A stretch of DNA of 57,126 nucleotides from Verrucomicrobiota bacterium (GTDB lineage Bacteria > Verrucomicrobiota > Verrucomicrobiia > Limisphaerales > UBA9464). The notes under the pieces were generated by a model. It did no database searches. It had not been told where the DNA came from and saw only the letters and a list, made by a program, of their open reading frames with translations. The stretch lies in the NCBI GenBank assembly GCA_947454705.1, contig CANGKZ010000034.1, forward strand, positions 1-57,126. The letters are read 5' to 3'. This document shows, one piece after another, positions 45,835 through 56,370 of the stretch. A program made the position numbers and the translations under genes. Each line of letters opens with the position of its first letter. Within the stretch, counting starts at the first letter, position 1.

Positions 45835-47394
45835 CTACTTCGCGAATTCCACGCAGCGCATCTCGCGAATCACCGTGATGCGGATCTGCCCGGGATAAAG
45901 CAGTTCCTCCTCGATGCGGCGCGCGATTTGTCGGGCCATCAGCAGCGAGGCGCTGTCGTCCACGGTCTCCGGGCGGACCACCACGCGGAGTTCGCGTCCG
46001 GCCTGGACCGCAAACGCCTTTTCCACCCCGGGGAAGCTCGCAGCAATCTGCTCCAGATTCTCCAACCGCTTGAGGTAGGTGGTCATGCTCTCGCTGCGCG
46101 AACCTGGACGCGAGGCGCTGATCGCATCGGCCGCCGCCACCAGCACGCCGAGAATGTTCTCATGCGGCACTTCCTGGTGATGACTGGCGACGCCGTTGAT
46201 GATGTTCGGAGCCTCACCGTGGCGCTTGAGGAAATCGGCACCCACGATCGCATGGGGTCCCTCGATTTCGTGGGTCATGGCCTTGCCCACGTCGTGAAGC
46301 AATCCGGCCCGTTTCGCCGCGGCAATGTCGTCCCCGAGCTCCGCCGCCATCAGCCCCGCGACATGTGCGACCTCGATGGAATGCTCGAGGACATTCTGGG
46401 AGAAGCTGCGACGGAAATGCAGTTTTCCGAGCATTCGTGCGACTTCGGAATGCACCGGCGCAAGACCGGTGCGGAACACCGCGTCGTCACCCTTGCGCTG
46501 GATGAACGTCTCCATTTCGGCGGAGACCGCAGCCACCACTTCCTCGATGCGCGTGGGGTGGATACGACCGTCGAGAATCAACCGCTCCATGGCCTGTCGG
46601 GCCACTTCGCGTCGAACTGGGTCGAATCCGGAGAGCACCACCGCGTTCGGCGTGTCATCGACCAACACGGTGACTCCCGTGGCGTTTTCGAAGGCGCGGA
46701 TGTTGCGTCCTTCGCGGCCGATGATCCGGCCCTTCATGTCGTCGCCGGTCAACGCCACGGTCGCCGTGGTTGTTTCGAAGGTGTACGTCGCCGAGTAGCG
46801 CTGGATCGCCGTGGCCAGGATCCTTCGAGCCTGCTCCTCGGCGTGAAGACGCGCCTCGTCGAGAATGTGACGCGACAAATCTGCGGCATCGCGGGTGGAC
46901 TCTCGCTCGACTTCCTTAAGCAGAAGGGTTCGCGCGGCGGTGCTGTCGAGCTGGGAAGTGGTTTCGAGCCGGGTCTTCCACTCGTCGGCCAGGCGCTTGG
47001 TGACTTGCGAGGCGCGTTCGAGATCCGCCCGGGCAAGATCGAGCTGTTCGCCCCGCTGACGCAGATCCTGTTCCTGAGCTCCGAGACGGTCGAGCTGACG
47101 GCTGACCAGCGCCTCGCGCTCGGCGATTCGCTTTTCGCCGCTCGTCACGGCCTCGCGTTTCTCGGCGAGGGCCCGCTCCAGCTCGGAACGTTCCTTGGTG
47201 ATCAGCTCCTGGGCGGCGACTTTGGCGCTGAGCTGCGCGGCTTCGGTATCGCGACGAAACGTGTCGCTCAGTTCCCGTTCGCGATTGGTCAACTCGGCAC
47301 GGAGGGCCCGCTCACGAAGGTGGGATATGGCGAACGAGATGCCGTATCCGGCACCCAGACTCACCAAGGCAGCGACAAGGGTTTCAGTCTGCAT
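45835..47394 (-). CDS. rny: Ribonuclease Y
   Basis: 519 residues, the standard size. An N-terminal membrane helix (LVAALVSLGAGYGISFAIS) and a long coiled coil (about 25-200) are followed by a KH domain, MKGRIIGREGRNIRAFENAT, and an HD domain with HSIEVAHVAGLMAAEL and AGLLHDVGKAMTHE. The C-terminus closes with IRITVIREMRCVEFAK, typical of RNase Y. It is a membrane-bound endoribonuclease that starts mRNA decay. It lies 6 bases downstream of the 5-formyl-THF cyclo-ligase gene in a run of three tightly spaced minus-strand genes. Confidence 0.96.
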   Translation of the reverse strand: MQTETLVAALVSLGAGYGISFAISHLRERALRAELTNRERELSDTFRRDTEAAQLSAKVAAQELITKERSELERALAEKREAVTSGEKRIAEREALVSRQLDRLGAQEQDLRQRGEQLDLARADLERASQVTKRLADEWKTRLETTSQLDSTAARTLLLKEVERESTRDAADLSRHILDEARLHAEEQARRILATAIQRYSATYTFETTTATVALTGDDMKGRIIGREGRNIRAFENATGVTVLVDDTPNAVVLSGFDPVRREVARQAMERLILDGRIHPTRIEEVVAAVSAEMETFIQRKGDDAVFRTGLAPVHSEVARMLGKLHFRRSFSQNVLEHSIEVAHVAGLMAAELGDDIAAAKRAGLLHDVGKAMTHEIEGPHAIVGADFLKRHGEAPNIINGVASHHQEVPHENILGVLVAAADAISASRPGSRSESMTTYLKRLENLEQIAASFPGVEKAFAVQAGRELRVVVRPETVDDSASLLMARQIARRIEEELLYPGQIRITVIREMRCVEFAK

Positions 47395-47400
47395 CAGGCA

Positions 47401-47988
47401 TCAAACCGGAGTGCGGCAATCGAATTCGCAAGCCGGGGTCAGGACGTAATCCATCGCGACATCGTGGGACTCCGTCGGAATCAAGGGAACCATCTGACAG
47501 TCGAATCCGATTCCGCAGGTCACCGCCGATGAAGCTCGCAGGAGGAGGCGGTCGAAATATCCTTTTCCCCGACCCAACCTCATCCCCGATGAAGTGAACG
47601 CTACACCCGGAACGAGAATGAAGTCCAGATCCGGGAATGGTACGTCACCGCAGGATTTGCCCGGCTCGCGCACGCCGTAGGCTCCGGGAATCAACTCGGC
47701 CACCGGACGGTTCCACTCGCGCACACCGTATTCCTGGGTCGCTGAATTGAAATAGGGGAGGGCACAGCGTTTGCCCAAAGCCTGCGCCCGCTCAATCAGC
47801 GGCGTCAGGTCCACCTCGTCGGCGAGCGACGCCGTGAGCAGCACGGTGCGCGCCTGAAGGAACACCGGCCAGGCACTGATCCTATCCACCAGCCGCGTCG
47901 ACGCCTCCGCTCGCTCCTGAACCAACAGGGCAGCGACCGCCGAACGCACTTCCCGACGCAACCGTGCCTTGTGCTCCACCGGAGTCAT
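47401..47988 (-). CDS. 5-formyltetrahydrofolate cyclo-ligase family protein
   Basis: A 195-residue protein converting 5-formyl-THF to 5,10-methenyl-THF with ATP. The signature RLGRGKGYFDRLL is intact, as are ILVPGVAFTSSGMRLG and the nucleotide-site C-terminus. In Proteobacteria the homologous gene (ygfA) directly follows the 6S RNA gene ssrS; here it is separated from a candidate structured RNA by rarA only. Its start at 47988 is 4 bases from the rarA stop, so they should be co-transcribed. Confidence 0.93.
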   Translation of the reverse strand: MTPVEHKARLRREVRSAVAALLVQERAEASTRLVDRISAWPVFLQARTVLLTASLADEVDLTPLIERAQALGKRCALPYFNSATQEYGVREWNRPVAELIPGAYGVREPGKSCGDVPFPDLDFILVPGVAFTSSGMRLGRGKGYFDRLLLRASSAVTCGIGFDCQMVPLIPTESHDVAMDYVLTPACEFDCRTPV

Positions 47989-47992
47989 GCGG

Positions 47993-49441
47993 TCAGGTTG
48001 CGGACGGAGCCGGAGGTGTACCGGAATTGGAACGCAGTGCGTTGGCCTGCGCTTCCTGCGACTGTTGGGCGCGCCATCGTTCCACGCGTTCGCGGATCTT
48101 TTTCTCCACGCCGAGATCCCCCGGTTCGTAGTAGCGGCGCGGCTCGGGCAGGTACTGCTGCGGCACGAAATGGCCTTCGAAGTCGTGCGGATATTTGTAC
48201 CCGATGCCGTTGCCGAGCTTCTCCGCGCCGGCGTAGTGGCCGTCCCGCAAGGCCGCGGGGACGGGCAGGGTTCGACCCGATTTCACGTCCTCCAGGGCGG
48301 CATCGATCGCCTTGATCACCGAGTTGCTCTTGGGGGCGGTTGCCAGATAGATGGCGGCCTCGGCGATCGGAATCCGCGCCTCCGGCCATCCGATGAATTC
48401 CGCGGCCTCGGCAGCAGCGCGCGCGAGGACCAGGGCCATCGGATCCGCGAGGCCGACGTCCTCGGCGGCCTGGATCACGATGCGTCGCGCAATGAACCGC
48501 GGGTCTTCACCCGCGTGGATCATCTTGGCCAGCCAGTACAAGGTCGCGTCGGGATCGGATCCGCGCATCGACTTGATGAACGCACTGATCGTGTCGTAGT
48601 GCGCATCACCGTCGCCGTCGTACACCACGGCCTTTTTCTGGATGCATTCCTGCGCGACGTTGAGATCGATGCGGATGAATCCATCCGCCCCGGGCGGAGT
48701 GGTGAGTGCGGCGATTTCCAGCGAGTTCAGCGCCTTGCGTGCATCGCCATCCGAGACCCGCGACAAATGCTCCAGCGCGTCGTCATCGGCCCGCAGACTC
48801 AAATGCCCCAGGCCGCGTTCCGCATCGGTGATCGCGCGGCGCAGCAGCGACAGGATTTCCCCTTCGCCGATCGGCCGCAGCTCGAACACCTGCGAGCGCG
48901 ACACCAGCGGGGAATTGACGAAGAAAAACGGATTGTGAGTGGTGGCCCCGATCAACCGCACCACGCCGCTCTCCACCTCGGGAAGGAGCACGTCCTGCTG
49001 GGCCTTGTTGAATCGGTGGATTTCATCGACGAACAACAACGTGGGTTGGCCCGTGTTCACCAGTCGGTTCGACGCCGCGGAAAGCACCCGTCGCATGTCG
49101 GCGACGTTGGACTCCACGCCGTTCAACCGTTCGAACCGGGAACGCGTGCGCGCCGCAATGATGTGGGCGAGTGAGGTTTTGCCGGTGCCCGGTGGACCAA
49201 AAAAGATCAACGACTGAATCCGGTCGGCCTCGATGGCGCGTCGGAGAAGGAGCCCCGGGGCGAGCAGATGTGACTGTCCGACGTACTCATCGAGCGTTCG
49301 CGGGCGCATGCGTGCCGCGAGCGGGGCACTGGTGACTGGGGAAGCGGGAGGAGGCTCCTCCATGGGCCCGGCGTTCGCCCGGGATCCTGCGGAAGGATCG
49401 GGCGCGGAACGCGAAAACAAATCGGACTCAGGGGCAGCCAC
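47993..49441 (-). CDS. rarA: Replication-associated recombination protein RarA/MgsA (AAA+ ATPase)
   Basis: About 482 residues. After a short SDLF-containing N-terminus and a low-complexity linker, PLAARMRPRTLDEYVGQSHL opens the AAA+ core. Walker A is FFGPPGTGKTSLAHI, Walker B TLLFVDEIHRFNKAQQD and sensor 1 LIGATTHNPFF. The C-terminal tetramerisation region (GYKYPHDFEGHFVPQQYLP) is a RarA hallmark. It acts at stalled replication forks. The GTG at 49441 is preferred because extending the frame upstream would run through an intrinsic terminator; an ATG at 49363 is an alternative start, and neither has a convincing ribosome binding site. Confidence 0.93.
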   Translation of the reverse strand: MAAPESDLFSRSAPDPSAGSRANAGPMEEPPPASPVTSAPLAARMRPRTLDEYVGQSHLLAPGLLLRRAIEADRIQSLIFFGPPGTGKTSLAHIIAARTRSRFERLNGVESNVADMRRVLSAASNRLVNTGQPTLLFVDEIHRFNKAQQDVLLPEVESGVVRLIGATTHNPFFFVNSPLVSRSQVFELRPIGEGEILSLLRRAITDAERGLGHLSLRADDDALEHLSRVSDGDARKALNSLEIAALTTPPGADGFIRIDLNVAQECIQKKAVVYDGDGDAHYDTISAFIKSMRGSDPDATLYWLAKMIHAGEDPRFIARRIVIQAAEDVGLADPMALVLARAAAEAAEFIGWPEARIPIAEAAIYLATAPKSNSVIKAIDAALEDVKSGRTLPVPAALRDGHYAGAEKLGNGIGYKYPHDFEGHFVPQQYLPEPRRYYEPGDLGVEKKIRERVERWRAQQSQEAQANALRSNSGTPPAPSAT

Positions 49442-49448
49442 GGAGTTG

Positions 49449-49479
49449 AAAAAAAGAGGACCCGGCCGAAACCGGGTCC
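49449..49479 (-). terminator. Intrinsic terminator of the RNA upstream of rarA
   Basis: On the minus strand GGACCCGG-TTTCGG-CCGGGTCC forms a perfect eight-base stem (49458-49479) followed by TCTTTTTTT. It ends 8 bases before the proposed rarA start. It could end a separate small RNA or act as an attenuator for rarA. Confidence 0.88.
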
Positions 49480-49592
49480 AGAAGGAAATCCCCACCATGG
49501 CCGTGCAAGACAGGTCCATCTACCGGATGAACCAGGTGGGGGCAACGGACCACGTTCGCCTTCCTGTTAAGGCCTGGCGGCGGTGAATTGGT
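49449..49592 (-). ncRNA. Structured small RNA upstream of rarA (candidate 6S RNA)
   Basis: About 140 bases on the minus strand between a possible -10 box TATAAG (49599-49604) and the terminator at 49449-49479. The sequence folds as a long rod: apical stem GGTTCATC-CGGTA-GATGGACC (eight pairs), then GTGGTC(C)GT(T)GC with GCACGGCCAT, an asymmetric internal loop, then AGGAAGG with CCTTCT. It has no coding potential I trust. A rod with a central bubble next to rarA and a 5-formyl-THF cyclo-ligase gene fits 6S RNA, whose genes sit beside these loci in other phyla. The size is shorter than the 184 bases of E. coli 6S, so the identity is a hypothesis. A tRNA was considered and rejected. Confidence 0.45.
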
Positions 49593-49763
49593 AACCGTCT
49601 TATAGCTCCCATGTTTTGTTACAAGGTCGAAGGACGTTGTCTCGAAACACGAACCGGGCAGGGAAAAGGGAAAGAGCGTTGCGGACAATCCGCAGGGCAA
49701 CCATCGGTCAACCCGGCGAAAACTCAAGCGATGAGTTGAAGGGAAATTGGGGGGGCAAAGCGC

Positions 49764-49950: not shown

Positions 49951-51846
49951 TCAGCGCGGACCGGGGCCGCCAGGCCCGCCGCGTCGGCCACCGGCCCAGT
50001 CGCGTTCCATGCCGCGCTTCAACGCCACCTCGTCCAACTCTCCCGAGTGCGCCGCGTCCCAGGCCCCAAACCAGCGGGCGAACGCGGCCATGAATTCATC
50101 GTGCGAGATGGCGCGGTCCCGATTCGCATCCATCGCTCCGGACCAAATGGGCGCAAGCCCCGCCGCCTGCGCAGAATCCACTGCGGGGGTTCCCGGCGGG
50201 AGTTTGTTGAATGCCGACCCCAGGCCCTTGCTGAGCTGCGATTGACGAATCTCGCCTTCCTGATCGTTGTCCCAAGCCTTGAACCACCGCTCAGCCAGTG
50301 CGGTGAGTTCGGCGGACGACACCTTTCCATCATGATCGGCATCGGCGAGAACCAGAATCGGCTTGGCGAGGAACGCGTTGTTGGGGCGCCCGCCGAACGC
50401 GCCATCATTGGACATTTCGAGCCCGGCGGACTTGCCGCTCAATTGGTCGGCCACTGCGGCGTGACGCGCCACAACAAAGGCACGCGCCGGCTTCGAGGCT
50501 CCGAATCCTGGTCCGCCTCCGCGACGTCCGCCCCCCGGCCCACCGCCGGACACCGATTCACCCGCGACCACCTTGTCAAACCGCTCCAGCGCGCTGGTGC
50601 CCTCCTCCGCAACGGCGGGTCGAATGACGGCGGCGACCTCCGAGATCTGGCGTCCGATGCGCTCCGGTTGACCAATGCCCGCCTGGATTTTTTCCAGATT
50701 CGCCCGGTAGCGCTGCTTGAAATCCTCCACGGCAAAGATGCGCTCCAACAGCCGGTTCGAACCGGACCACGGACGCTGCAGGCTCAGCTGCTCGCGGGTT
50801 TGCTGCGATCCGCGCATGCCGAAGCTTCCGAACGAATGATCCAGATCCCACGGAATGAAGGCGAAGCGGTTCGATTTGGGATCCAGGTGAACGTAGTAGT
50901 TCTGCCCCATGTCCAGGAGGCTGTCGAAATTCGAAAGCCACACCGTCGCCGCCATGAAGCGCGCGAATTCCTCCACGTCGAGATATTCGCCGAGCCGTTT
51001 CGCGAACTCCGCGTCGGTGGCGTTTGAAACAAAACGGGCGAACTCCATCACGCGCGCCTTCTGCGCATCCGAAGCCTTGGTTTTCGGATCGTATGGACCG
51101 GCGTACTTCGACCAATTCGTGCCCAGATCGGTGAACGGACGCGACGTCACCGGCTTCAGAACCAGGCCGTCCTTCGTGCCAAAGTGGTCCTTCGCGAAAT
51201 GCGAATCCACATTTTGCGGCGTCGTGTACAGGCCCACGTAGGTGTTGGTGTGAAGACCCGGCACCGACACGTACACCTTCGCATACGCCGTGCGCGGGGC
51301 GGGGACTCCGGCATCCCGGAAGAACCGGTACGCCAGCGTGTCATTCATCATCCCTACGTCAGTCACGTTGTTCTGGAAATCGAGCGTGGTGGCTCCGCCG
51401 ACCTTTCGGCCCTTCACGAACTTGTTCAGATCCACCTTCAGCGGACGCTTCATCCCGCCTTGGGATTCCATGTAGGTGCCGTTGCCCTTGTACCGGACTC
51501 CGACGTCGGGGAATTTGACTCCGCCGATTTCCAGGTCGGCATGGACGTACTTGAACTCCCATCCCATCGCCGACGCCAACCCGTTTCGCTTGCCCGGCGC
51601 GCCCTGCAGGAAGGAATCCCGGCCATCGTCCCCACCTTGACCCGGCGGACGAAACCCGCCGCCCCCTTCCGACTGCGCGGGCTCCATCGCCGCCCACTGC
51701 TCGGGGGTGAACCGCAAATGAACCGTCCACACATTCGTGGCCACGTAAAACTCAGCCGGCGAGTCCGGCAACGTCGCCGCAATGGTTGAATTTGTTGCCC
51801 ACAACGCAACGACGCCAGCGCTCAGGACAGCAAGGAAACGGTTCAT
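49951..51846 (-). CDS. Secreted CotH-kinase protein with C-terminal EF-hands
   Basis: 631 residues with a signal peptide. Residues about 30-380 form a CotH protein-kinase-like domain: RYKGNGTYMESQGGMKRPLK (substrate/ATP loop), VYVSVPGLHTNTYVGLYTT and the catalytic-type FIPWDLDHSFGSFG. A glycine/arginine-rich linker (about 435-455) leads to EF-hand pairs: DADHDGKVSSAEL, DNDQEGEIRQSQL and DANRDRAISHDEF, calcium-binding dockerin-like loops with the first the most canonical. The tail is again glycine/proline/arginine-rich. CotH kinases phosphorylate proteins outside the cytoplasm in spores; here calcium may control folding or binding. ATG 51846 begins the signal peptide; an ATG at 51861 is also in frame. 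Confidence 0.87.
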   Translation of the reverse strand: MNRFLAVLSAGVVALWATNSTIAATLPDSPAEFYVATNVWTVHLRFTPEQWAAMEPAQSEGGGGFRPPGQGGDDGRDSFLQGAPGKRNGLASAMGWEFKYVHADLEIGGVKFPDVGVRYKGNGTYMESQGGMKRPLKVDLNKFVKGRKVGGATTLDFQNNVTDVGMMNDTLAYRFFRDAGVPAPRTAYAKVYVSVPGLHTNTYVGLYTTPQNVDSHFAKDHFGTKDGLVLKPVTSRPFTDLGTNWSKYAGPYDPKTKASDAQKARVMEFARFVSNATDAEFAKRLGEYLDVEEFARFMAATVWLSNFDSLLDMGQNYYVHLDPKSNRFAFIPWDLDHSFGSFGMRGSQQTREQLSLQRPWSGSNRLLERIFAVEDFKQRYRANLEKIQAGIGQPERIGRQISEVAAVIRPAVAEEGTSALERFDKVVAGESVSGGGPGGGRRGGGPGFGASKPARAFVVARHAAVADQLSGKSAGLEMSNDGAFGGRPNNAFLAKPILVLADADHDGKVSSAELTALAERWFKAWDNDQEGEIRQSQLSKGLGSAFNKLPPGTPAVDSAQAAGLAPIWSGAMDANRDRAISHDEFMAAFARWFGAWDAAHSGELDEVALKRGMERDWAGGRRGGPGGPGPR

Positions 51847-51971
51847 CCCCCCATTGACCATGCCGTTACGGGGAGGTTACAGCAGGAAATGGGGCAGGTC
51901 CGAAAACCGTCGGAGGTGGATTTCGGAGATTCCGGGATTGCATGGAATCCACAGCTGACGGAAACAACGTC

Positions 51972-54159: not shown

Positions 54160-54239
54160 GGAACAGTGCAACGCCATGGGAATTCCGGTCAGGCCGGTTC
54201 CTTGACTCCCCAAGGCCTCTCCCTATCCTCCGACCATTG

Positions 54240-56370
<2,131 letters not shown>

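Follow-up and report, generated by a model that had tools for sequence, protein, structure and literature searches.

A full-length 6S RNA gene upstream of rarA in a Verrucomicrobiota genome, with a conserved leader element resembling the boxA of rRNA operons

The window, by which we mean the whole stretch of 57,126 nucleotides that was analysed, comes from a Verrucomicrobiota bacterium. On its minus strand, an RNA gene and its terminator lie between a gene of the CotH-kinase family and three further protein genes. The features of this neighbourhood are as follows.

49951 to 51861, minus strand: gene next upstream of the 6S RNA, encoding a protein of the CotH-kinase family with EF hands at its C terminus
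49485 to 49667, minus strand: 6S RNA, mature form as bounded by Rfam (RF00013, 183 nt)
49449 to 49479, minus strand: intrinsic terminator, a 9-bp stem then TCTTTTTTT, -17.3 kcal/mol
47993 to 49441, minus strand: rarA (MgsA), with a GTG start at 49441 or an ATG start at 49363 (Pfam MgsA_C, 231.9 bits, and AAA)
47401 to 47988, minus strand: 5-formyltetrahydrofolate cyclo-ligase, 5-FCL (TIGR02727, 149.5 bits, cut-off 84.9)
45835 to 47394, minus strand: rny, ribonuclease Y (TIGR03319, 617.6 bits, cut-off 454.35)

A preliminary description of this DNA had proposed an unannotated structured RNA at 49449-49604, with a strong terminator just before rarA, and a 5-formyl-THF cyclo-ligase gene after it. 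Both genes were confirmed by Pfam and NCBIfam, and the terminator was found with its stem at 49479-49458. A structured RNA is indeed present on the minus strand, but its extent and parts needed correction: the proposed span left out the 63 nt at the 5' end (the 5' third of the RNA) and added the terminator. The longest reading frame of rarA opens at an ATG at 49519, inside the RNA, and runs through the terminator (49441-49519); an automatic gene caller choosing this start could hide the RNA gene. In two relatives, the rarA matches (genome G009, contig C40, and genome G027, contig C3) each read through one TGA. Elsewhere in the window, a TPP riboswitch (RF00059) was found at 54238-54346 on the plus strand, with 61.4 bits for a gathering score of 54.3.

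The RNA matched the Rfam 6S model (RF00013) with 54.7 bits, above the gathering score of 46.4 (E = 3.6e-8 for the whole window), and the match spans the complete model, from position 1 to position 187 of 187. Its length of 183 nt equals that of the annotated ssrS of E. coli, and the 'divergent or short 6S' of the preliminary description therefore proved to be of full length. When the Rfam models were run, as had been recommended, no better family was found: the next best reached 17.1 bits, its cut-off being 60. A single 6S match was obtained in the whole 5.4-Mb genome (E 0.001). The earlier suggestion of a possible 6S RNA is thus upheld by an end-to-end match above the gathering score and by covariation in relatives, and a new kind of RNA need not be invoked. 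We conclude, with a probability of about 0.94, that this is the single, full-length 6S RNA (ssrS) gene of a Verrucomicrobiota genome of the Limisphaerales/Pedosphaerales type. The named records nearest in rarA come from Pedosphaera, Limisphaerales, Verrucomicrobiales and 'Verrucomicrobia subdivision 3' assemblies, which suggests that the organism belongs there. The part of this reading that is directly shown consists of the covariance-model fit, the covarying rod described below, and the 6S-rarA-(5-FCL) cluster common to many relatives. The RNA is an ordinary new member of its family, encoded by a previously unannotated gene.

The distribution of the RNA was analysed in the window's own genome and 38 relatives. 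With the Rfam model, 29 of the 39 genomes had a match (E 0.001); a second covariance model, R2, built from these 29 members, detected 6S in 36 of the 39 at the same threshold, a gain of seven. Nine stretches upstream of rarA were inspected, seven of them from genomes without an Rfam match and two from genomes with one. Among the seven Rfam-negative stretches, six contained BLASTN homologues of 75 to 83% identity (G002, G004, G005, G012, G018 and G021). For the seventh genome, G003, no BLASTN homologue was found in the inspected stretch, and R2 places the RNA 2.5 kb from rarA. The seven genomes gained with R2 are these same seven, G003 included, which indicates that these gaps were due to the model and not to the genomes. 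The Rfam model thus under-detects 6S in this order (29 against 36 of 39). Across the phylum, the Rfam model found 6S in 144 of 288 genomes (E 0.001), compared to 54 with R2, the window's own genome being included in both counts; R2 is therefore good only near its home order.

In 23 of the 36 R2-positive genomes, the window's own included, 6S and rarA share a strand, with 6S at most 1.5 kb upstream. In 11 others rarA lies on another contig, in one it is 2.5 kb away, and in one the two genes are on opposite strands, about 7.8 kb from each other. The adjacency is therefore not universal. When named loci were chosen only for the presence of rarA, 48 of 80 had 6S upstream on the same strand (E 0.01); several of those without it end before rarA or belong to more distant groups. 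The preliminary description had stated that 6S genes adjoin these same two genes in other bacteria, which is correct: in E. coli, ssrS is followed by fau, its 5-FTHF cyclo-ligase gene, and an excerpt of PMC8414754 places 6S beside rarA in lactic acid bacteria. The order in the window, 6S-rarA-5-FCL, combines both neighbours.

This arrangement also bears on the proposal that the structure is a rarA attenuator, that is, a cis-regulator and not a free RNA. Its terminator does end a few nucleotides short of the GTG at which rarA may start, but the full-length 6S match makes an attenuator unnecessary. Moreover, the RNA is conserved even where rarA lies 0.6 to 2.5 kb off or on another contig, and the terminator hairpin of the window is, by eye, not common to all relatives. 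We consider an attenuator very improbable, and retain a 6S RNA gene.

The secondary structure was examined on an alignment of 20 family members (A2), of which 15 were Rfam matches and five had been found only through the rarA neighbourhood and BLASTN; locus L076, the 5' end of which is missing, was excluded. The elements discussed below are located as follows, with nucleotides (nt) counted along the RNA.

49489 to 49664, minus strand: closing arm, nt 4-20 (49664-49648) with nt 163-179 (49505-49489), 95.7% of cells paired among 20 members
49507 to 49643, minus strand: 5'-arm family extension GAGACA:UGUCUU, nt 25-30 with nt 156-161, with compensatory changes in helix 2
49513 to 49533, minus strand: 3' central-bulge hairpin, 8 bp, nt 135-142:148-155, -9.2 kcal/mol
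49621 to 49637, minus strand: predicted template of the product RNA (pRNA)

A rod of 45 pairs was set by hand, on the basis of the window's sequence and of the consensus of its family. On A2, 96.3% of its cells are paired, compared to 38 to 50% when the rod is slid along the alignment. Nine pairs are changed on both sides, against 4.5 in shuffled alignments (none of 500 shuffles reached nine), and 22 cells are compensatory, against 6.0. The covariation that the preliminary description had asked for is present. On 29 members of the order, 86.0% of the cells are paired, with 17 double-changed pairs (11.8 in shuffles) and 104 compensatory cells (44.6 in shuffles). We conclude that a two-arm rod around a central bulge is kept through compensatory changes. 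The inner helices supply the evidence for covariation, as the closing arm hardly varies and thus gives little information on pairing. Of the 45 rod pairs, 44 are standard in the RNA of the window, the broken one being A61 x C127 in the upper arm; of the 50 pairs in the Rfam structure, 40 are standard in it. The positions of the 5'-arm extension are unpaired in the Rfam consensus. When mapped onto the order alignment (A1), the Rfam structure has 70.9% of its cells paired, below the value of the 45-pair rod, an advantage that the rod owes in part to its being drawn from these sequences, and neither the double-changed pairs of the Rfam structure (149 of 500 shuffles) nor its further pair types (342 of 500) exceed the shuffles; we put this shortfall down to mis-registration of the apical half by MAFFT. 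Single-sequence folding was unremarkable, with z values of -1.83 for the 6S RNA and -1.84 for the stretch first described. Energy alone would thus not reveal this RNA, whereas the Rfam match and covariation do.

The 'perfect eight-pair apical stem' of the preliminary description exists, at 49533-49513, but it is not apical. It is a hairpin on the 3' side of the central bulge that competes with the 5' central stem: the hairpin (135-142:148-155) and the rod stem 33-39:148-154 are mutually exclusive, since nt 148-154 are common to both. The hairpin has 83.8% of its cells paired on the order alignment, with 27 compensatory cells (14.2 in shuffles), and 89.6% in the family, with four (1.3 in shuffles). 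For the 5' central stem, taken as Rfam's pairs, the corresponding values are 83.4% and 18 (7.6 in shuffles). Double-changed pairs did not exceed shuffles for the 5' central stem (330 of 500) or for the hairpin on A1 (430 of 500), and did not clearly do so for the hairpin on A2 (40 of 500). RNAalifold favoured the 3' hairpin over the 5' central stem on the order alignment, and it is this preference that prompted us to consider a switch. Both exclusive pairings appear to be kept, as would be expected of a 6S RNA that refolds upon pRNA synthesis.

The pRNA template plausibly occupies the 5' strand of the central bulge. It was placed through the Rfam alignment, and its placement leans also on the start of the E. 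coli pRNA. The predicted pRNA, 5'-ACAAGGUCGAAGGACGU, begins with ACAAGG and so has GG at positions 5/6. An excerpt of PMC8414754 mentions, as a feature common beyond lactic acid bacteria too, a GG at position 5/6 or 4/5 of the pRNA. An excerpt of PMC12005410, citing Panchapakesan and Unrau 2012, describes a central-region hairpin formed by E. coli 6S on pRNA synthesis; for B. subtilis 6S-1, the same excerpt reports a central bulge collapse helix instead. By analogy with the known family, the rod would mimic an open promoter and hold the housekeeping RNA polymerase holoenzyme. Upon the return of NTPs, the polymerase would use the 5' strand of the bulge as the template for a short pRNA, leaving the 3' strand free to snap into the 8-bp hairpin, as reported for E. 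coli, and would then be released. Like the E. coli release hairpin of the excerpt of PMC12005410, the hairpin predicted here on the 3' strand of the central bulge is incompatible with the 5' stem.

Compared with known 6S/SsrS RNAs (RF00013), the RNA is alike in its full-length match, its length, its rod with a central bulge and its closing stem (UCCCUGCC...GGYGGGGA), as well as in having 5-FCL in its neighbourhood, like the ssrS-fau pair of E. coli. It differs by an extra paired segment in the window's family (GAGACA:UGUCUC), by the presence of rarA between 6S and 5-FCL, and by a leader element upstream. With lactic acid bacteria it shares rarA as a neighbour, but in the excerpt of PMC8414754 rarA stands upstream of 6S, whereas in the window 6S stands upstream of rarA.

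The region upstream of the mature RNA contains four elements.

49722 to 49727, minus strand: -35-like TTGAGT, within an order-wide CTTGAG motif
49700 to 49705, minus strand: -10-like GATGGT, weak, with a 16-nt spacer, placed by eye from relatives
49680 to 49694, minus strand: leader hairpin TGCGGA-TTG-TCCGCA, 6 bp, p 0.03, -8 kcal/mol with its tail
49671 to 49677, minus strand: GCTCTTT, core of a conserved boxA-like leader element

The '-10 box' of the preliminary description (presumably TATAAG, from 49604 downwards) had to be abandoned: it corresponds to nt 64-69 of the 6S RNA, inside the upper arm, and it is not conserved, members of A2 reading CGCCAAG, ATCAAAG or GTAAAAG at this place. The pair TTGAGT/GATGGT is more likely to be the promoter. 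By consensus this promoter is weak; no site passed the consensus scan. Among 58 upstream regions, all chosen for bearing the motif G-N-TCTTT, CTTGAG was present in 36 (1.7 in shuffles) and the looser CTTG[AT] in 53 (9.0 in shuffles). These 58 regions are the set of 59 loci used for hairpins without L072; the 59 comprise 33 G-set loci, all of the 34 except L027, which lacks the motif, and 26 named loci, the 27 that bear it less L138. A strong hairpin directly before the motif was found at 26 of the 59 loci, compared to 8.2 in shuffles, and at 15 of them it was significant singly (p < 0.05); the arms of the hairpin differ in sequence from species to species.

The motif G-N-TCTTT was defined on the G-set and then tested on further named loci. 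It occurred within 60 nt upstream of 6S at 28 of 33 G-set loci (1.7 in shuffles; of 34 loci, L072 was dropped for having less than 60 nt upstream) and at 27 of 40 further named loci (1.2 in shuffles). The latter are what remained of 48 after removal of four with a 6S identical to one of the G-set and four whose upstream sequence is shorter than 60 nt; L094 and L102, both among the 40, come from a single metagenome-assembled genome. Between -200 and -140, the motif was found at none of 33 G-set and none of 39 named loci. Upstream of RNase P RNA it occurred once in the 30 loci listed out of 34 genomes with an RNase P match, and upstream of tmRNA in none of the best 30 matches. For the rest of the phylum, the best 90 of the 143 matches other than the window's own were used, 52 from other classes and 38 from other orders of the same class: in this sample the motif lay within 70 nt of 6S in 31 of the 52 (1.8 in shuffles), but in only one of the 38. 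In one family of another order of the class (f20, for example L053-L055), a TTGAC promoter-like site was present directly before 6S, within 60 nt, at all 22 loci sampled; the layout of the gene in this family differs from that in the window's order. The motif stands 2 to 39 nt from the mature 6S end in the order (59 nt in one case), 2 to 7 nt from it in 19 of 20 members of the window's family, and up to about 62 nt from it in other classes. A position-fixed upstream profile gave weak signals, the motif being at variable distance.

A conserved leader element is very likely real. In the window, GCTCTTT, which fits GYTCTTT, sits downstream of the promoter-like hexamers, and we infer that it is transcribed as a leader. 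Transcription would start some 25 to 30 nt upstream of the mature 6S RNA, and the primary transcript would carry the short hairpin and the GCUCUUU leader, later trimmed off, and would end at the hairpin terminator ahead of rarA.

The element resembles the boxA of the rRNA operons of these bacteria. All eight complete 16S-23S spacers inspected in relatives contain GTTCTTTGA[AC]A, and ten 16S leaders carry forms of G[CT]TC[TAC]TTGA, these sites having been picked with that pattern. The boxA consensus quoted in an excerpt of PMC5725501, GYTCTTTAANA, is gamma-proteobacterial. In the window's family, the fifth base of the 16S-leader copy differs from that of GTTCTTTGA (GTTCATTGAAA or GTTCCTTGA; loci L165, L168, L169, L170 and L172), and the spacer copy of the first four of these loci retains GTTCTTTGA; at L173, which is of another family, the 16S-leader copy is GCTCATTGAAA. 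Among the best 90 of the 143 phylum matches, forms such as GTTCTTTAACAG, GTTCTTTGACAG and GTTCTTTGAGAG stand in front of 6S in other classes. A boxA-rich relative has a 6S leader of the type GTTCTTTGAAA, and the copy in the window reads GCUCUUUCCC.

A matrix was built from 18 rRNA sites, chosen with our own pattern, and applied to the 6S leaders. Scores of at least 8 bits were reached by 12 of 14 leaders from the order's other families (at least 10 bits: 8 of 14) and, within the best 90 of 143 phylum matches, by 25 of 52 from other classes (19 of 52) and 3 of 38 from other orders of the class (2 of 38). In the window's own family, 6 of 19 leaders reached 8 bits and 4 of 19 reached 10, one of the 20 members, L072, being left aside. 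The controls gave 3 of 30 and 0 of 30 for RNase P RNA, and 1 of 30 at both thresholds for the best 30 tmRNA matches. The leader in the window scored -2.3 bits: GCTCTTT is kept and the GAAA half is lost. As this falls short of a full rRNA boxA match, the window's copy was not annotated as a boxA. On these proportions the element can probably be read as a boxA in the order and in the other classes, but only doubtfully so in the window's own copy.

What such an element might do was considered in two ways. According to the first, 6S genes of the order would carry a Nus-factor site of the rRNA-operon type, in which a boxB-like hairpin and a GNUCUUU boxA on the nascent transcript bind NusB/S10. The site may guard the transcript against Rho, or guide its folding or trimming, and would link the supply of 6S to the machinery that transcribes rRNA. 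Such a site would complement the 6S explanation and not replace it. It is favoured by the enrichment of the motif upstream of 6S, in other classes as well, with its near absence before the control RNAs, by the uniform spacer sequences and their likeness to the excerpted consensus of PMC5725501, by the matrix scores outside the window's family, and by the presence of NusB (PF01029 over cut-off) in all 39 genomes, the window's own (G000) included. However, the scores are low in the window's family, and -2.3 bits in the window itself; the second base of the motif is A in 12 of the 33 G-set motifs, outside GYTCTTT; the other orders of the same class are without the element (apart from the single case above, among the best 90 of 143); the hairpin, although commoner than in shuffles, is missing from more than half of the loci; and the controls are not empty at 8 bits. 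In addition, the matrix sites were selected with a pattern of our own, and the G-set served to define the motif in the first place. In E. coli, the 300 bases upstream of ssrS contain no GNTCTTT. A GTTCCTT variant was either present in both or absent from both the rRNA and 6S leaders in nine genomes, being present in both in two of them; counted by hand after the fact, this pairing has a chance of 1 in 36 and is suggestive only. On balance we give the Nus-factor site about an even chance.

According to the second, the element would be a processing site or another protein site, for instance one at which a ribonuclease trims pre-6S, and not a boxA. Its closeness to the mature end, above all in the window's family, is what a trimming site might show, but its sequence agrees with the rRNA boxA in other families and classes and its distance to the mature end varies widely in the latter. 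We regard a processing site as rather unlikely, and as less likely than a boxA-type site. The element is like a boxA (NusB/S10 site) in that its GNTCTTT core follows a promoter-like element, in part with a hairpin just before the core, and in that near-identical forms occur in the 6S leaders of other families and classes; it differs in preceding 6S RNA and not rRNA, and in the degeneracy of its 3' half within the window's family.

In the open-access literature searched (subscription papers are mostly outside it), no earlier report of a boxA-like leader on 6S RNA genes was found, nor a paper joining '6S RNA', 'boxA' and 'antitermination'; among the papers listed, none combined 6S RNA with boxA. 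In an excerpt of PMC11077062, NusB appears only as an author name, and one of PMC2848244, which contains both '6S RNA' and 'antitermination', has one unrelated mention. A published search for Nus targets left non-coding RNAs unconsidered, by its own statement in an excerpt of PMC5725501.

What could interest specialists is less the 6S RNA itself than the leader conserved upstream of it, which looks like the boxA of rRNA operons. Taken together, in Limisphaerales and in many lineages of other Verrucomicrobiota classes, the 6S gene may be laid out as a miniature rRNA operon, with a promoter, in part a leader hairpin, a boxA and a stable RNA, a view to which we give slightly less than even odds. 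If the element is a boxA, a non-ribosomal stable RNA would join the targets of the Nus complex, and rRNA transcription would be linked directly, in a manner open to testing, to the 6S RNA that restrains it. If the miniature operon is real, rRNA and the RNA that silences the housekeeping polymerase would be products of one and the same modified elongation complex, and the brake would be coupled to the ribosome-making machinery through NusB/S10.
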